Virus record (IMG/VR): IMGVR_UViG_3300013101_000133
Location: 1 to 20,099 of that record
Reading direction: 5' to 3' (one strand)
Source: a virus
DNA length: 20,099 nt
Part shown: positions 9,479 to 16,658 of the stretch, in pieces
Layout of the letters: each line of letters opens with the position of its first letter
Numbering within the stretch: the stretch's first letter is position 1
Notes under the pieces: generated by a model
What the model was told of the DNA's origin: nothing
What the model saw: the letters and a program-made list of their open reading frames with translations, nothing else
Database searches by the model: none
Translations under genes and position numbers: made by a program

Positions 9479-10033
9479 ATGGCACAAGTTGATTTAAAAC
9501 GCGCCGACATTTCGTTAGTGCCTGGGACTGGCCCAGTAGTTAAGCTTAAAATTGGGGAAGGTACTCTTACTTATACAGAAGGGCGCCCTATCCAATATGT
9601 CAAAGACAGAGGGCTATTAGACGAAGTACGTCTTGATAAGCCCGTGCCTTTAGACGTAAAGATTGACGCCATGTGGGTGGCTATTGGGACAGACGTAGTT
9701 GTGCATTCTAATGATGTGCCGTCTGTACCAACCACTGTGAACTATGCTAAGGACTTAGTAATGGAGACATTACGTGGTACCTTATTATGGGATGATGATG
9801 CTGACGGTGGTACAACACCTGAAGTATTGATCACTTCGTCTGACTCAGACACAACCCGTCCATTCGCTGTGCATATTGAAGTTGATTATGTTACAGAGGG
9901 TGCAACACCTAACACTAAAATCCGTTTACCGAATTTTAGATATGAACAGGCAGACTTTGACCTTGATGCTGGTACTATTAGCCTCTCAGGTAAATGTTTT
10001 GCTCTTAAAGCAATAATCACGGAGACAGCATAA
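9479..10033 (+). CDS. Tail tube-like protein B (184 aa), paralogue of the previous gene
   Basis: This protein aligns end to end with its neighbour: IGEGTLTYTEGRPIQYV against IGEGNLTYSEKRPLEYV, LDVKIDAMW against LDLKMDFTW, RPFAVHIEVDY against RPYAVDVKLMY, and NFRYEQADFDLDAGTISLSG against its partner ending. It is 36 residues longer, mostly through an insertion in the middle (about residues 75-115, with WDDDADGGTTPE). It is probably the second subunit or a specialised variant of the tail tube, for example at one end of the tail. It starts one base after the previous stop and ends one base before the chaperone start. The weak GGAC at 9468-9471 is the only ribosome-site candidate. Confidence 0.7.
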   Translation: MAQVDLKRADISLVPGTGPVVKLKIGEGTLTYTEGRPIQYVKDRGLLDEVRLDKPVPLDVKIDAMWVAIGTDVVVHSNDVPSVPTTVNYAKDLVMETLRGTLLWDDDADGGTTPEVLITSSDSDTTRPFAVHIEVDYVTEGATPNTKIRLPNFRYEQADFDLDAGTISLSGKCFALKAIITETA

Positions 10034-10034
10034 C

Positions 10035-10511
10035 ATGAAAATGAATGGTGCACTAGTCGACGCTACTTATATTGAAACTGTCGTTATACCTAGGGGTGAC
10101 GCGCAGTATGTCTTTAAAGCGCGACCCCTTACGGCTGAGGATGAAGAATTCTTTGTAGAAGTTTGTCCAAAACCTACACCGCCTACATTTCAAGTCCCAG
10201 GCGGCAAGGTAGAAACAGACTTAACAAATGCCCAGTATGTACTTGCTCTTAGTACATGGTCAGACATGCGTTCTGAGTTCTTATTTTATCAGTCTTTGAA
10301 AGCTACTGAAGACTTAGAATGGGAAAATATTACAGAGTCTGACCCGTCTACATGGGGTAAAGTTGAAGAAGAATTATTGGCTGCTGGGTTCTTAAGCCCA
10401 GAAGTTGTAAGGATCTTTAACGCAGTCGTTATTGCTAATGGCCTAGATCAATCTAAAATTGATAAGGCTACCAAATCTTTTTTAGCTACTCAGGCGGCGG
10501 AACAAGCTTAA
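10035..10511 (+). CDS. Tail assembly chaperone, short (G-type) product, 158 aa
   Basis: Siphovirus tail assembly chaperones bind the tape measure and recruit tube subunits. They are made in a short form and a frameshifted long form. This ORF sits in the canonical place, between the tail tube and tape measure genes. It contains KARPLTAEDEEFFVEV, a mixed helical middle, and ends SFLATQAAEQA. Codons 148-150 (TCT TTT TTA) create the heptamer T_TTT_TTA, the classical slippery arrangement, nine codons before the TAA stop. The -1 frame after it stays open to 10684. The short form terminates normally and should be the major product. No sequence family is claimed beyond the chaperone role. Confidence 0.8.
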   Translation: MKMNGALVDATYIETVVIPRGDAQYVFKARPLTAEDEEFFVEVCPKPTPPTFQVPGGKVETDLTNAQYVLALSTWSDMRSEFLFYQSLKATEDLEWENITESDPSTWGKVEEELLAAGFLSPEVVRIFNAVVIANGLDQSKIDKATKSFLATQAAEQA

Positions 10512-10684
10512 AGTTGCCACCTGCTAGGACCGGACATTACGGTACTTGGCGAGCTTGTGAGAGATTTGGTATATTACCACCAGGACTAGCTTCAGCTTGG
10601 GACGACTGCACAGCAGTTGCTCAAGCTGAACTACTAGCATACGATACTATAAGAAGAGTAGAGGATATACCAGATGAAGCTTAG
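10035..10684 (+). CDS. Tail assembly chaperone, long (GT-type) product by programmed -1 frameshift at 10478-10484
   Basis: After slipping one base back on T_TTT_TTA, translation continues at AGC (10484) for 66 codons to TAG at 10682-10684. Added to the first 150 residues this gives a 216-residue fusion. The extension has little open-frame alternative and no good start of its own. Its sequence, with ERFGILPPGLASAWDDC and AQAELLAYDTIRRVEDI, matches the C-terminal T-domain style of other phage chaperones ('WERFGVLPPG...AELLAYDQIR'). As in lambda, a few percent of ribosomes would be expected to make this form, which contacts the tape measure. The region would otherwise be a 160-base gap in a tightly packed operon. 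Confidence 0.85.
10478..10484 (+). promoter_or_regulatory. Programmed -1 ribosomal frameshift heptamer T_TTT_TTA
   Basis: Six T residues (10478-10483) followed by A lie in register X_XXY_YYZ with the zero frame, TCT TTT TTA. Both tRNAs can re-pair after a one-base slip. The -1 frame is open for 66 codons and encodes a recognisable chaperone T-domain. A weak imperfect stem between GGCGGC near 10493 and GCCACC near 10515 is possible, but no strong pseudoknot is obvious. Confidence 0.85.
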
Positions 10685-11018
10685 AGCTTTCCACGGCTAT
10701 AATGGCCTGTCAATAGAAGAAAAAGCAAAAATATGTAATGGAGCTGGGGCGGCAGGAGACTGGCGTTCTAGATTCATACCAAATTCAATGTGGGGTTTGA
10801 GCTTAAAAGAAGTCTTTTACCGCCACGACTATGATTACTACATTGGGCGTACAGACGAAGGTAAGTGGGATGCAGACATCAACTTACTTATTAACTGTAT
10901 CATACTAATCTTAGAAGCGGAAAGCAACATTTTCCTTACTTATGCACGAATGGCTAGGGCTATTAAGTATTTTCTAGCAGTGCATTATAAGGGACATGAT
11001 GCTTTCTATGCCTCGTGA
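10674..11018 (+). CDS. Small phospholipase A2-like protein (His-Asp motif), 114 aa
   Basis: The start overlaps the end of the chaperone T frame and has a ribosome site, GAGG (10661-10664). The protein has CNGAGAAGD (21-29), then IPNSMWGLSLKEVFYRHDYD (35-54) with HDxDYY (51-56) and a later DAD (66-68). The order small/Gly loop, IPD/N, helix with HDxxY, then Asp is that of bacterial and viral phospholipase A2-like domains, where the loop and Asp bind calcium and the His is catalytic. Residues 69-82 are hydrophobic (INLLINCIILILEA) and could associate with membrane. If active it might help the phage cross membranes, as the parvovirus domain does, but it might be an inactive structural relative. 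Lying between the chaperone and tape measure is unusual. Recognition is by short motif only. Confidence 0.5.
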   Translation: MKLRAFHGYNGLSIEEKAKICNGAGAAGDWRSRFIPNSMWGLSLKEVFYRHDYDYYIGRTDEGKWDADINLLINCIILILEAESNIFLTYARMARAIKYFLAVHYKGHDAFYAS

Positions 11019-11575
11019 GCTATGAAGTAGGGCAACGTAAGTCTAGCCAAAGATTCTTAAGGAACAAGGTACATACAGTCCAAAAAATCACTAAGGCTGA
11101 GCATACAAAACTATCGCACTTATGGGACGACAGTGCTAAGGCTTTCTTAAGAGCTATTGTACTTAGTGACGTAATTAAGGTAGACACAGGGATGTCTAAA
11201 GCATCTTTGTTACCACTAGCTAGATACTTAAAGATGTACACGGCAGTAAAAGGTAGTATCAATCCTAAAAACTCTGAGCAAAGAGGCTCATTCACCTTAG
11301 ATGGGGTGTGGCAACCTGATATCAATAGGAGTGCAGCTTTAGGCGAAGCATCTAGTAGCTTGCGAGCAGGCTACAACATACTATATGGTAGTAACAAACG
11401 TATGGTTTTTGTATTTGACTTCGAAGTACGTGTATGGCAATATTTACTACATGAGCAAGGCTTAGGTAAAGGGCCAGCTTGGGACACAATAAGTATAGGG
11501 CGTGCTGCTTTCTACGACCACTTAACAAATAATTTTACTCTCTTTGACTTGAGGGAATGGGGGCTACATGGCTGA
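11015..11575 (+). CDS. Unassigned virion-type protein upstream of the tape measure, 186 aa
   Basis: The 186-residue ORF starts GTG in a GTGA overlap with the preceding stop; no in-frame ATG lies nearby. It begins basic (GQRKSSQRFLRNKVHTVQK) with no signal peptide. The C-terminal third, VFVFDFEVRVWQYLLHEQG then PAWDTISIGRAAFYDHL, resembles a motif I associate with small phage virion proteins (W.S/T...GRAAF..YL), often found near tail-completion genes. The stop overlaps the tape measure start by eight bases. Encoded between chaperone and tape measure, it could be a minor tail, tail-completion or tape measure partner protein. Function is not assignable, but the frame is well supported by the tight overlaps on both sides. 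Confidence 0.6.
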   Translation: MSYEVGQRKSSQRFLRNKVHTVQKITKAEHTKLSHLWDDSAKAFLRAIVLSDVIKVDTGMSKASLLPLARYLKMYTAVKGSINPKNSEQRGSFTLDGVWQPDINRSAALGEASSSLRAGYNILYGSNKRMVFVFDFEVRVWQYLLHEQGLGKGPAWDTISIGRAAFYDHLTNNFTLFDLREWGLHG

Positions 11576-14500
11576 TGACGTATATAAAATTAAGGCGGAT
11601 GTCTCTCAGTATCATACAGCGATAGACAAACTTGTCACATCGCATGAAAAATTACTACAGGCTGAAAGCGCCCATGCTTCAAAGTTAGCTACTTTAGAAG
11701 CTGCAGAAAAAGGTGCTACACACTCTATTAGTGGTGTAACAAAAGCAGGTCTAGCTTTCTCTAGTACTTTTAAAGAAGCTAATGGTGTACTAACTCAGAC
11801 TGCTGCTAAGTTAGACGTTCTAAAAACAAAAGGCGGCCAATCTGTATTAGGTTCTATTTCTAAGACAGTCTTGAGTCAAGCTAAAAATGTAACTACACCT
11901 CAAGTAGTTAAGATTGACAAAGCTGTAGGCCAGCTAGATGAACTTATAACTAAAAATAAGTTCTCAAAGAAACAGCTAGAAAATGTCTGGAGAGATCTTC
12001 AACTTGGGATAGGGTCTAAGTTGGAAGGCGAGCTAGGGAAAGCTCAAGCTGTACTTAGAACACTAAGTAATCTTACTAAGCAAATAGAGGTTAAAACTTT
12101 AACCCCTGATTTCTCTAAGAATAGTGCCACTGTTTCTAGTCTGAGTAAAGACAAAGCAACAGATACAGTAGCTCAAACTGCTAGGATTAAAGCTGTAACT
12201 GCAGCTGAAGCAACTGCTAATAAGCTAGAAAGTATCGAAATAAAAAGCGCAGCAGACATATTAGCTATTAAGAAGAAAGCTAATGCTGCGCTTTTAACAG
12301 TTGAAAAAGCTAAGAGGGCCCAGTTAAAAGCTACAAATTCTATAGCAGGTGTTCGAGCGCAAGCAAAAGCACAGCGGGAAATTGAAGAAGGCACAGTCCA
12401 AGCAATTATTAAAATAGCTGAAAAGAAGAAAAAGGCTTTAGATGCCCTACTGTCTAAGCTTAATACTGCTAGGAGTGCACATAATACAACTGTTGAGAAT
12501 CTAGAGAAAGGTCTTAATGTTAAGTTAGCTGCTCTTTTAAAGGCACAAGAGGTTGCGTATAAAGCATCCTTAGCTAAAAAGCTTGCAGCTTTTAGAACTG
12601 CGAAAGAAAAAGAAAAGGCATTAGCTGGGAAACAAACAGGCATCTTGTTGCGACAAGAGGAGGAATATAAAGCATCCTTAGCCCGAAAACTTAAAGCTCT
12701 TAAAATTGCAAAAGACAAAGAGAAAGGGTTAACTAGGCAGCGAGCAGCAGCTCTTTTACAGAAACAAGAGGCAGGCTACAAAGCGTCTTTAGCTAAAAGA
12801 CTTAAAATTTTTAAAGCTTTTAAGAAGGCAGAAAGGGCAGAAGCTGCAAGACAAGCCGCCAACTCTGCTGAAGAGACTAGAGTTCGAAAGGATCGAGGTG
12901 TAGTAACTGGCCTCCCAGTAGGTAAGAAGGTTACGTCTAAAGGGCTGATAGACTTACATAAGACAGAAGCAACCTTACTAAAATTCTTAGCTGCTAATCG
13001 TAAAGGTGTAGCAGACCAAATAATATCTATCAAACGTTTAGGTGTCATTTGGAAAGCTGTAGGCGAGAAAAATATACGCACCTTGAAGCTCACTACTTTG
13101 GCTGAGCAGGAACTCTTAGATAAGATCAATGACGTAAGACATGCCCACTCAAGAGCTACGGCTACTGGTGGTCACTCTTCTAATAAGTTAATCCGGCAGT
13201 CACATGCCTTAACAGGTGCTTTAGAGCAGCAAAAGAAACAGTTGCTAGGTGTAACATTATCCTGGCAAACAATGTTTCGTTTGATAATCTCTCAAGCAAC
13301 CAGTAGGGTATTAACAAGCTTCTTAAGTGAGTTACGTGAAGCTAGAGATACTGCATTAGAGCTTTCTAAAAACTTTGCTAGGATTCAAACACTAGACAAT
13401 ACTAATACACCTATTTCTGCTTGGACTGCTGGTGTTAGAGAGCTGAGTGAGAATAGTGGCTTAGACATCTTAGACCAGACTAAAGCTGCTTATGAAGCTT
13501 TGTCTAATCAGATAGGTGAAGGTACTTCTAGCCTAGGATTTTTAAATGACGCAAATGAGCTAGCAATCATAAGTGGAGCTTCTGCTGCTGAGGCTGGAAC
13601 TTTGTTGGCAGATGCTATACATGCTTGGGGCCTTGAAATAGAAGACTCAGGTGCAATAGCTGCCAAGTTCTTTAAGATTGTCGATTTAGGTCGTGCAACT
13701 GTAGCTGAAATGGCTCCTAACTTAGGTAGAGTAGCTGTACCGGCTGCGCAGCTTGGTGTCACATTAGAAGAAGTGGGTGCAGCTTTAGCTACCACAACCA
13801 TCAAAGGTGTTAAGCTAGAGACAGCATCTACCCTCCTGCGGAATGTCTTATTAAAACTAGCAAAACCTTCTGAGGCTCTTAAAGAGTTAATGAATAAGCT
13901 AGGGTTCGAAACAGGTGAAGCCTGGATTGAGACAAGAACATTAGGTGGTGTATTAGCTGACTTAGAAGTTGAGGCTGGCGGTAGTTCATCTGCTATAGCC
14001 AAGTTATTCCCAAATATTAGATCCATGACCGGTGCAACAATCTTTGCAGGTGACGGTCTTAATATTTATAAACAAAGCTTAGAGGGTATTAATAAGGCTA
14101 CTAAGGACTATGACAACAATGTTCAAAAAGTTAAAGATAGCTTAGGTGTATTATATGATGTAGCTTCTGAAAAAATAAGTAATATTTTTATCTTTGACAC
14201 AGCTCAACCACTACTACAGTATGTTGCAGACCTAACAAATAACTTTGATGACTTAGTAGGGCTTGTTGAAAAAGCCAGAGTTGCTTTTATAACTCTGGGT
14301 ACAGCAGCTTTACCTATAGCCGCTTTAGGTGTTCTGCAGTTAGTTAAAGCTACTGCTGGGTTAGCAATAACAATCTTAGGATTGTCTAACCCATTCTTAG
14401 CTGTTGCAGCTGTTGCGGCTACAGCCTATGGGGCTATAGCAGGCTTCTCAGCAGCAACTGCTGCTGACATTAAGCGAGACAACGCAAAGTTATTTGTTGT

Positions 14501-16658
14501 TTGGCTTAAAGACTTTGAAAAAGTGGAGCGCGTTTCTAAAGAGACGTATGCAGCACTAAGGGCTGAAACAAATGCTACTTTTAAACGAAACTTAGCGCCT
14601 GTTCGAGACTACTTCAGACAAGTTGCAATAGCAGCTAATAAGATTGCTGGAGTAAACAAAGAAACTCTTAAAACATTAAATGCTAATATACGTGAGCAAG
14701 AACGCTTAGGCTTAGACAGCTTAAATAAAACATTAGCAACGAGTCGTCAAAAAGTTTCAAGCTTGACTACTAGCTTAGATGCTTTAAAACAAAGTGCAGT
14801 TGAGATAGCAGCAGCCGTAGCTGGGTCTGAATTGAATACGTCTTTAGTAGGGGAAACAGACTTACAAAAGATTATAACACTCAATGATGAGATAGAAAGG
14901 CTAAATGTACTAAGAGGCCAAGCTGAAACTCAACAAGAGTTTCAAGGTCTGTCGAAGCAAATAGATGCAGCTACTAGGCAGAAGCATGATATCCAGTTAA
15001 AAATAACAGCTGACCCTGCTGCGTTAGAAGCAGCATACGATGATGCTTTTGACAGAATTGAAGCTAGACTTAGAGTATTTAAGAATCAAGGAAACACGTT
15101 AGGTGTAGCTGAAACTAAAGCAGAGTACATTAAGTTACTAGCATTATATAAGACTGACACAGGGCTTAAGGATGTTAGCAACCAGTATGCAAATATCCTA
15201 GCTGATATTAAGATTGTTAAAGCAGAATTAACAGCGGCTGAGAAAGGCTCTAACTTATTCTTTAATTTGAAGAATGAGTTAGCTAACTTAGAGCAGTTAA
15301 AAGAAGGCATTGGTTCTATATTTCAAACAACTAAAGCTACAGGTTTCAATACAGCTTTTAAAGATGCTAAAGCAGAAGAGTTACAGCAACAGAAACAATT
15401 AACTATTGCTTTAGAAGCGATGCGGCAGAAAGAACTCTCAGCCATAGACGCTCAAAGAACAGTTATAGCTAGTTTGACTGCTGACTATAAAGCCTTAACA
15501 TCCTTTAAAGTAGAGGACTTTAAAACAACTGAAGCTACTACTAAAACTTTAAAAACTCAATTAGAGTTGATTAGGAAGATACGTGGTGTACAGGGTAAGG
15601 GTGCGTTAGGAGGAGCTGAATTTGAGCTTAGAGGATTAGCTAGAGACAATACTGCTAAAACTTCAGGCATAGGCGGACGAGACTCTAGGGTAGACCTCGA
15701 GCGTCTTGTCAAAGAGTCACAAACTCAACAGGCTGAAGCTAGTAGGAATGTTAAAGCAGCTGATACAGCAGTACAAGAAGCTGTAGGCACTATTTTAGAC
15801 TTTGCAGCTAAGCTTAATGTTACTGAAGCTAGAGACACATCAGTACGTAGCCAAGCAGCACCTCCAGAACTTTTGGATGCTTTGTTTGAGTCTATGACTG
15901 GTTGGTTTTCTGCTTTCGCAGCAGGATTTCGAGGTGAGCTAGTTAATCCACAAGCGGCTTTGTTAGGGCCTGAAAACCCTCAGTACATCAGTATTGTTGA
16001 CCCTGAGGTTACAAAAGCTTTAAAAGCAACAGCCAGTGAAATAGTGGCTATATCTGCAATTTCAAAAAAGGCACCTACAGACCCTAAAGCTTTAGATGAA
16101 CTAAAGGGTTTGCTACAAAGCTTAGAGTTGAGAGACCCGAAAGTCGAAAAAATACGTACTACAGACCCGTCTAAGTTAGACGCAGACGGCCGTATTAAGT
16201 TAGCTGAAGCTATATCTAAGCTTACAATTGTTGAACAGTTGTTAGTTAAAATGACACAGGAGAATACACCAGAGGCTTTAGGTAAAGCTAGAGAACAGCA
16301 GGGTACGGCTAGAAGTGAGTTGGTCGCCTTAGACCAGAAAATAGCTAAAATAGGTGAGAACTTCCCTAAGCTAGAATCTGCGACAAAGGAAAATATTACT
16401 GAACTAAAAAGTAACACAACAGCTGTAGACAAGCTAGCTTTAAAAATGGACAAAATGTCTCAAGCTTTAACTGGCGCCCCTAGCTTAAAAGTATTACCCA
16501 ATACAAAACAGCAACAGGTATTACCACAGGCTGGTGATGTTATTAATATAACAAATAATGTAAATGTTGACAGTCCTACAGATGCCGAAATGGCTAAGAG
16601 GATTGTAGACCCACTAACACGCTTACAACGTCTAGCGAATGTAAGAAAAGTAAGATAA
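11568..16658 (+). CDS. Tail tape measure protein (TP901/PhageMin_Tail family), 1,696 aa
   Basis: The tape measure sets tail length and is ejected with the DNA. It is the longest gene here, starting at an ATG preceded by GAGGG and GGGGG runs. The N-terminal third (to about residue 430) is charged coiled coil, including three repeats at about 36-37 residue spacing whose YKASLA motif recurs at residues 331, 367 and 404. A TP901-type region spans about 590-860, with NFARIQTLDNT, ASAAEAGTLLADAI and LGRVAVPAAQLGVTLEEVG. A hydrophobic block at about 903-969 (ITLGTAALPIAALGVLQLVK and the following Ala-rich stretch) may form the membrane-interacting helices. The rest is coiled coil again, ending with NITNNVNVDSPTDAEMAKR, typical of tape measure C-termini. 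At roughly 0.15 nm per residue, tail length would be near 250 nm, which fits a siphovirus. Confidence 0.93.
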   Translation: MADDVYKIKADVSQYHTAIDKLVTSHEKLLQAESAHASKLATLEAAEKGATHSISGVTKAGLAFSSTFKEANGVLTQTAAKLDVLKTKGGQSVLGSISKTVLSQAKNVTTPQVVKIDKAVGQLDELITKNKFSKKQLENVWRDLQLGIGSKLEGELGKAQAVLRTLSNLTKQIEVKTLTPDFSKNSATVSSLSKDKATDTVAQTARIKAVTAAEATANKLESIEIKSAADILAIKKKANAALLTVEKAKRAQLKATNSIAGVRAQAKAQREIEEGTVQAIIKIAEKKKKALDALLSKLNTARSAHNTTVENLEKGLNVKLAALLKAQEVAYKASLAKKLAAFRTAKEKEKALAGKQTGILLRQEEEYKASLARKLKALKIAKDKEKGLTRQRAAALLQKQEAGYKASLAKRLKIFKAFKKAERAEAARQAANSAEETRVRKDRGVVTGLPVGKKVTSKGLIDLHKTEATLLKFLAANRKGVADQIISIKRLGVIWKAVGEKNIRTLKLTTLAEQELLDKINDVRHAHSRATATGGHSSNKLIRQSHALTGALEQQKKQLLGVTLSWQTMFRLIISQATSRVLTSFLSELREARDTALELSKNFARIQTLDNTNTPISAWTAGVRELSENSGLDILDQTKAAYEALSNQIGEGTSSLGFLNDANELAIISGASAAEAGTLLADAIHAWGLEIEDSGAIAAKFFKIVDLGRATVAEMAPNLGRVAVPAAQLGVTLEEVGAALATTTIKGVKLETASTLLRNVLLKLAKPSEALKELMNKLGFETGEAWIETRTLGGVLADLEVEAGGSSSAIAKLFPNIRSMTGATIFAGDGLNIYKQSLEGINKATKDYDNNVQKVKDSLGVLYDVASEKISNIFIFDTAQPLLQYVADLTNNFDDLVGLVEKARVAFITLGTAALPIAALGVLQLVKATAGLAITILGLSNPFLAVAAVAATAYGAIAGFSAATAADIKRDNAKLFVVWLKDFEKVERVSKETYAALRAETNATFKRNLAPVRDYFRQVAIAANKIAGVNKETLKTLNANIREQERLGLDSLNKTLATSRQKVSSLTTSLDALKQSAVEIAAAVAGSELNTSLVGETDLQKIITLNDEIERLNVLRGQAETQQEFQGLSKQIDAATRQKHDIQLKITADPAALEAAYDDAFDRIEARLRVFKNQGNTLGVAETKAEYIKLLALYKTDTGLKDVSNQYANILADIKIVKAELTAAEKGSNLFFNLKNELANLEQLKEGIGSIFQTTKATGFNTAFKDAKAEELQQQKQLTIALEAMRQKELSAIDAQRTVIASLTADYKALTSFKVEDFKTTEATTKTLKTQLELIRKIRGVQGKGALGGAEFELRGLARDNTAKTSGIGGRDSRVDLERLVKESQTQQAEASRNVKAADTAVQEAVGTILDFAAKLNVTEARDTSVRSQAAPPELLDALFESMTGWFSAFAAGFRGELVNPQAALLGPENPQYISIVDPEVTKALKATASEIVAISAISKKAPTDPKALDELKGLLQSLELRDPKVEKIRTTDPSKLDADGRIKLAEAISKLTIVEQLLVKMTQENTPEALGKAREQQGTARSELVALDQKIAKIGENFPKLESATKENITELKSNTTAVDKLALKMDKMSQALTGAPSLKVLPNTKQQQVLPQAGDVINITNNVNVDSPTDAEMAKRIVDPLTRLQRLANVRKVR

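Follow-up and report, generated by a model that had tools for sequence, protein, structure and literature searches.

The gene at positions 10674 to 11018 of the viral stretch analysed here very probably encodes a phospholipase A2 (PLA2)-type enzyme, judging from its family profile and its modelled fold, and the gene neighbourhood of its relatives indicates that the product probably helps in the final stage of infection, when the host membranes are broken, rather than during phage entry. The stretch, called the window below, comprises positions 1-20,099 of IMG/VR record IMGVR_UViG_3300013101_000133, and the protein is designated P0004. The explanation that fits best, and towards which we lean, is that of a small phage PLA2 attacking the host envelope at lysis, which has here been moved into the late structural operon. 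The features on which the argument depends are the following.

10035..10511, plus strand: upstream ORF of 158 aa, a G-like tail assembly chaperone by its place
10466..10684, plus strand: -1-frame extension (T-like) of the 158-aa ORF, with the slippery heptamer TTTTTTA at 10478-10484, in frame
10660..10664, plus strand: AGAGG, likely ribosome-binding site 9 nt 5' of the PLA2-like ATG, as read from the sequence
10674..11018, plus strand: PLA2-like gene (P0004), ATG start, ORF of 114 aa
10734..10760, plus strand: Gly-rich loop CNGAGAAGD, residues 21-29, with G23 and G25 invariant in 44/44 aligned proteins
10824..10841, plus strand: HDYDYY, residues 51-56, with H51, D52 and Y55 invariant in 44/44 and falling on His64-Asp65-Tyr68 of the Streptomyces PLA2 1faz
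10854..10916, plus strand: helix 61-81 of the structure model, with D68, N74 and the hydrophobic stretch NLLINCIILIL
10869..10877, plus strand: DAD, residues 66-68, with D68 invariant in 44/44 and falling on Asp85 of 1faz, partner of the His/Asp dyad
10929..10991, plus strand: helix 86-106, third core helix of the model, Arg-rich in many relatives as read from their sequences (LRRRRALKYYEAV type)
11015..11575, plus strand: ORF of 186 aa with a GTG start, flanked by the PLA2-like and tape measure genes
11568..16658, plus strand: tail tape measure protein of 1696 aa, part of whose first 811 residues matches annotated tape measure proteins

The preliminary description of this DNA had named the ORF together with its CNGAGAAGD, IPN (residues 35-37), HDYDYY and DAD motifs and an adjacent hydrophobic helix, and all of them are there, the last as NLLINCIILIL. 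It had placed the gene between a chaperone and the tape measure gene, a position which holds except that the 186-aa ORF intervenes before the latter. The PLA2-like gene overlaps the upstream -1-frame extension by 11 bases and the 186-aa ORF by 4 bases. Since TTTTTTA is in frame for a -1 slip, the 158-aa ORF and its extension look like a frameshifted tail assembly chaperone pair, so that a programmed -1 frameshift is likely at 10035-10684; the 158-aa ORF gave no PHROG match and no accepted Pfam match. P0004 is not a chance ORF, because relatives with 49-54% identity exist and 11 positions (G23, G25, P36, H51, D52, Y55, G58, D68, N74, V103 and G107) are identical in 44/44 aligned proteins.

Elsewhere in the window, PHROGs recognise a terminase gene for packaging (phrog_675, E 5.6e-84) and a portal gene (phrog_145, E 9.3e-29), and searches with the tape measure and capsid proteins reach distant phages only. 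The 186-aa ORF gave no relatives in viral contigs or named phages; a search of viral contigs for relatives of the 184-aa ORF at 9479-10033 found no version of the operon lacking the PLA2-like gene, and the annotation of Marinobacter phage PS3 shows no PLA2-like gene 5' of its tape measure gene, the small genes there being unnamed. When the other window ORFs (n=20) were compared with genes of the relatives' loci, the capsid protein was the sole phmmer match (E <=0.01). A 424-aa protein at 17328-18602 matches phrog_1645, a virion structural protein (E 5.6e-39). Directly 5' of the terminase gene lies an 82-aa ORF (1778-2026) that overlaps both flanking ORFs and combines a heptad-like, charged stretch with a membrane segment at its C-terminus; it reads like a holin or holin partner, with no clear family. 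A lipobox scan of the window returned two short matches, which we do not believe, both lying inside other genes.

Relatives were collected from viral contigs and, in a single scan, from species genomes; the scans gave 1, 17, 2, 47 and 3 loci in overlapping sets. Duplicate rows were removed, L007, L036, L048, L056, L057, L058 and L060 being identical proteins, and the resulting 44-row alignment is without L013 (a near-copy of L010), L020 (a fragment) and the Thiohalocapsa phage protein (P0002, L003), which had been included in a 20-row alignment. The relatives are 110-187 aa long, and 0/44 are fused to a structural protein. Among named phages, tblastn found a "phospholipase A2 domain protein" of Vibrio phage 1.097.O (33%, E 3e-4) and the Thiohalocapsa phage protein (36%, E 2e-3); the label "DNA binding protein" carried by the latter was set aside, as no match that we saw supports it. 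Across 293 genomes of the order of a Motiliproteus host, strong matches occur in that host only, with weak partial ones in two more, and the family looks phage-bound and patchy. The Motiliproteus host of locus L023 (genome G040) has two PLA2-like copies on different contigs, an intact one and another, on contig C34 at 85029-85355, that contains a single in-frame TGA.

P0004 alone matched no PLA2 family in the Pfam, PHROGs or PDB searches. Its best Pfam row, DUF1181 (E 0.063), was taken as a chance one, this family matching 1/44 relatives; a PHROG 1515 match (E 0.084) was also taken as chance, as were histone methyltransferase rows in PDB (E about 0.1), which are gone from the list given by the family profile. 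The PLA2 link is thus visible only because a family profile was used. The 20-row profile retrieved the Streptomyces PLA2 1faz from PDB with E 1.9e-7, and the 44-row profile retrieved 1faz (2.6e-8), 4aup (7.8e-7), 7ygk (1.9e-5) and 8k1w (7.1e-5), all of them PLA2, with bacterial and fungal enzymes among them. In the profile alignment H51, D52, Y55 and D68 fall on His64, Asp65, Tyr68 and Asp85, which we take to be the catalytic residues of 1faz. PMC11525133 describes a His/Asp dyad in group XIV enzymes that is consistent with this assignment. The PLA2 reading proposed in the preliminary description is borne out by this alignment, and the His/Asp conservation that it called for among relatives is complete, with H51, D52 and D68 present in 44/44.

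The structure model built with the alignment reached pLDDT 92.6 and pTM 0.85; the model built without it was poor (pLDDT 50.3) and was discarded. In the comparison with solved folds, which had also been proposed at the outset, PLA2 rows come first in both Foldseek and VIA: the top five Foldseek rows against PDB are all PLA2 chains, the best with a weak E of 0.039 and a probability of 1.00, and VIA gave Z of 10.5 (97 residues, 2.6 A), 8.5, 8.2 and 7.9 for four PLA2 entries, ahead of a next row at 5.5, with the caveat that a Z under 13 can reflect only a common helical arrangement. Because such Z arise among helical proteins, we read the fold match jointly with the independent sequence profile. 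Rows that rank lower than the PLA2s, such as an EED binder, MIT domains and ribosomal S20, are regarded as common helical arrangements. Against a viral structure library the Vibrio phage 1.097.O protein came first (E 4.7e-6, TM 0.88); a Siphoviridae "Phospholipase A2" was next, and many densovirus VP1 proteins came after it with weak matches. P0004 has the HD..Y helix, the second catalytic Asp on the next helix and, in the model, the helical core of the PLA2 superfamily, and its residues strongly suggest that it would be catalytic.

Its place among known PLA2s can be described from both sides. With group XIV PLA2 (Streptomyces violaceoruber 1faz/1lwb; Tuber borchii 4aup; PF09056) it shares the His-Asp...Tyr helix, a second catalytic Asp, the Pro turn that precedes the first core helix and the Tyr/Val/Gly pattern at the C-terminus, and it finds its best fold matches there, the models being 16-20% identical where they align; unlike these enzymes it is phage-encoded and has neither a signal peptide nor the two disulfides (four Cys), and its Gly-rich loop, with the invariant G23 and G25, precedes the start of the alignment to solved PLA2s, so that no counterpart of the calcium-ligand residues is aligned. 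Like the DUF1353 family (PF07087, phrog_1158), to which TtaP belongs, it is a small stand-alone protein with no signal sequence, and TtaP has the same H-D...D set, with 15 residues from H to D (H70, D85) against 17 in P0004. According to PMC11525133, lysates with TtaP have PLA2 activity that is lost in the D85A mutant, and the protein has no overt secretion signal and lacks the four cysteines of group XIV enzymes.

At E <=0.1, DUF1353 matches 20/44 relatives (best 3.5e-5) and Phospholip_A2_3 (PF09056) 17/44 (best 1e-4), while the parvovirus VP1 PLA2 profile PF08398 weakly matches 2/44 (best E 0.012). The phage family thus stands between group XIV PLA2 and DUF1353, and P0004 would be expected to work like the enzymes of both. 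We do not file it under either, because PF09056 is unlisted for it at E up to 5 and DUF1353 has no match in the window. A named viral counterpart, AUR87155.1 of Vibrio phage 1.097.O, belongs to the same family at 33% identity and is the best viral fold match; unlike P0004 it has a Cys pair, and its gene lies between the terminase and head completion adaptor genes, after an ORF with a lipoprotein signal.

A column count of that pair, at positions 24 and 48, found both cysteines present in 29/44 and both absent in 15/44 proteins. Position 48 is three residues before the catalytic His, and in the alignment 1faz has a cysteine at the corresponding site. That the two are gained or lost together is as expected of a disulfide, which fits an enzyme acting outside the cytoplasm. 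P0004 is among the proteins lacking the pair, its only cysteines being Cys21 and Cys75, and three changes are required on the tree to explain the absence, the clade of the window being covered by one of these, so that few events rather than many are involved. A simple scan found a hydrophobic N-terminal 15-mer in 2/44 members, P0004 not being one of them; with so few, release through a holin rather than by a signal peptide would be the simplest route.

The preliminary description had suggested that the enzyme is a tail-borne entry aid. The relatives point elsewhere, as their genes sit preferentially beside endolysins, lipoproteins and holin-like proteins, an arrangement which points to host lysis. 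With neighbour genes called by a simple longest-ORF script, short lipobox ORFs make up 13/86 of the genes at +-1 vs 5/420 at +-3 to 8 (p 1.8e-7), and short membrane-segment ORFs 23/86 vs 29/420 (p 8.6e-7); the counts at +-2, outside this test, are 3/84 and 13/84. These offset counts are without L048, L057 and L014, and the count per locus, with near-copies removed, is also without L005, L034, L035, L038 and L039. Per locus, a lipoprotein lies within +-2 in 15/39 vs a control mean of about 3%, and a lipoprotein or membrane ORF in 23/39 vs 22% in the control, a control gene being available in 30 loci. Small lipoproteins with later cysteines (e.g. YPEEGIC) also recur beside the PLA2-like gene (L026 7374-7583, L001 6586-6879, L064 6742-6951, L065 2954-3256, L052 6633-6908), and these may be spanins of an undescribed type.

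Endolysins give a similar picture. When 111 same-strand neighbours (55-420 aa, within +-2) were compared with PHROGs, endolysins accounted for 8 of the best 25 of 74 families; for neighbours at +-3 (51 scanned) they were 2/25 families among the matches listed, and at +-5 to 7 (126 scanned) 0/25 among the matches listed. Pfam adds Peptidase_M15, Amidase_3, Glyco_hydro_108, Phage_lysozyme and two holin families within +-2. Seven endolysin families were then searched record-wide: PF08291 over 39 records, phrog_33083, PF05838, phrog_465 and PF13539 over 38 each (L027, a near-copy of L028, being dropped), and PF01520 and PF00959 over 24 (the window plus 23 others that mostly had no near match until then). 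A match was found in 21/38 records and the nearest one lies within 1.5 kb of the PLA2-like gene in 17/21, where uniform placement would give 3.5/20, or about 3.6/21, a contrast biased upward since the endolysin families were partly picked from neighbours, and one drawn from loci that are not independent. Of these 17, 16 were computed (L028 via its neighbour, confirmed record-wide) and L044 was placed by hand, its lysozyme match abutting or overlapping the start of the PLA2-like ORF as called. The nearest endolysin is 6.7-20 kb off in the other 4/21 (L049, L062, L016 and L040), the Vibrio phage among them. The remaining 17/38 records have no match to the endolysin families searched in each; most are short and may be fragments. 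From this gene context a lysis role of the PLA2-like family is fairly likely.

For the copy in the window the chances of such a role are about even. It has no visible lysis cassette around it, being embedded in the tail operon with a tail-gene overlap at either end; Amidase_3 (PF01520) and Phage_lysozyme (PF00959), the two endolysin families searched there, have no match in the 20 kb of the window. With no endolysin found beside the gene, its role has to be read from its relatives. In the tree P0004 joins L026, L001, L005 and L006 in a clade of 12 (support 100/99), and in the same clade an endolysin lies 9-482 bases from the gene in L033, L039, L032 = L008, L038, L035 and L028 = L001. The branch of P0004 is long (1.48), with all invariant residues kept. 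In L026 a membrane-segment ORF is followed by the PLA2-like gene, a lipoprotein ORF and a head-tail adaptor gene, so PLA2-like genes can sit within a structural module.

It is from such positions that the entry reading draws its strength. The PLA2 of parvovirus VP1 is a capsid-fused entry enzyme of animal viruses, whose domain is thought to aid endosomal escape, and by analogy a PLA2 borne by the virion in or near the tail could open the host membrane for genome entry. The window gene, overlapping both neighbours inside a tail operon, would suit this, as would the L026 relative, directly 5' of a lipoprotein ORF and a head-tail adaptor, and the Vibrio phage relative beside terminase and head completion genes. 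P0004 and VP1 (PF08398) are alike in having a PLA2 superfamily domain in a virus, but the phage proteins are stand-alone, none of the small relatives being joined to a structural protein. A late-operon position does not by itself place a protein in the particle, and the over-representation of endolysin and lipoprotein genes next to the PLA2-like gene among the relatives also argues against this reading, which we consider unlikely.

A late membrane-modifying enzyme working outside lysis, in envelope remodelling, in phage exclusion or as cargo acting on the lysogen or on competitors, would accommodate the varied gene orders and positions of the relatives, but the repeated pairing with endolysin and lipoprotein genes is unexpected for a general cargo gene and the way the genes overlap at their ends in the window points to late expression alongside the tail genes, so that we hold this possibility to be rather improbable.

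Very improbable, in our opinion, is a tail assembly or chaperone factor with a PLA2-like fold and no catalysis, which could be argued from the match of phrog_1158 ("tail assembly chaperone") to 20/44 members, from the DUF1353 gene named tail assembly chaperone in Aeromonas phage ZPAH34 and from the place of the window gene after the frameshifted chaperone-like pair, but which is opposed by the invariance in 44/44 of the catalytic His, both Asp and Tyr that a scaffold would not need, by the PLA2 activity of TtaP from the related DUF1353 family (PMC11525133), by the location of the ZPAH34 gene beside tail fibre/spike genes on the other strand, not a chaperone position, and by the lack of any phrog_1158 match in the window, P0004 included. 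The label "tail assembly chaperone" on DUF1353/phrog_1158 phage proteins looks wrong, because matching relatives (e.g. L070 5824-6174) keep the full PLA2 active site and the tested DUF1353 member is a PLA2.

Returning to a small PLA2 that acts at lysis, we infer for P0004 the use of calcium, release through holin lesions and action at the end of infection. The enzyme, probably calcium-dependent, would be made late alongside the virion genes with no signal peptide and would remain in the calcium-poor cytoplasm until lesions of the holin type gave both it and the endolysin a way out. Once released, it would cut the sn-2 ester of envelope phospholipids, and the resulting lysolipids and fatty acids would weaken both the inner and the outer membrane as the wall is removed by the endolysin.

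Phages of Gram-negative bacteria are usually described as lysing their hosts by means of holin, endolysin and spanin, the disruption of the outer membrane being physical. Among phospholipases, the patatin fold is unrelated to the PLA2 type of P0004. In the open-licence literature we found a phospholipase in a phage lysis cassette proposed only for Wolbachia phage WO, where a patatin-like phospholipase beside a holin-like gene is proposed as a lysis gene (PMC9203015). That proposal, as given there, rests on the usual lysis genes being missing, whereas the relatives of P0004 often adjoin an endolysin. DUF1353 genes are found in both kinds of surroundings: in Fusobacterium phage FNU1 one lies two genes before an amidase (PMC6591296), and in Francisella phage KIRK one lies between head-joining-like and tail-fibre-assembly-like genes (PMC7924643), a gene order which does not fit a lysis cassette.

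We may tentatively suggest, with somewhat less than an even chance of being right, that phages of diverse Gram-negative hosts carry a dedicated PLA2 lysis enzyme beside holin, endolysin and spanin-like lipoprotein, silenced by low cytoplasmic calcium until the membrane is breached, that the phage DUF1353 "chaperones" are enzymes of the same kind, and that TtaP beside the muramidase TtsA is a captured piece of such a cassette. The authors of the TtaP study favour a part in toxin release, for which TtsA is insufficient, and leave the matter open (PMC11525133).

With a phospholipase found repeatedly in the lysis cassette, phage lysis would gain a step in which the membranes themselves are attacked enzymatically. 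The lysis reading would also give a function to the apparently mislabelled DUF1353/phrog_1158 phage family, and it would provide a concrete hypothesis for why the typhoid toxin islet pairs a PLA2 with a muramidase.
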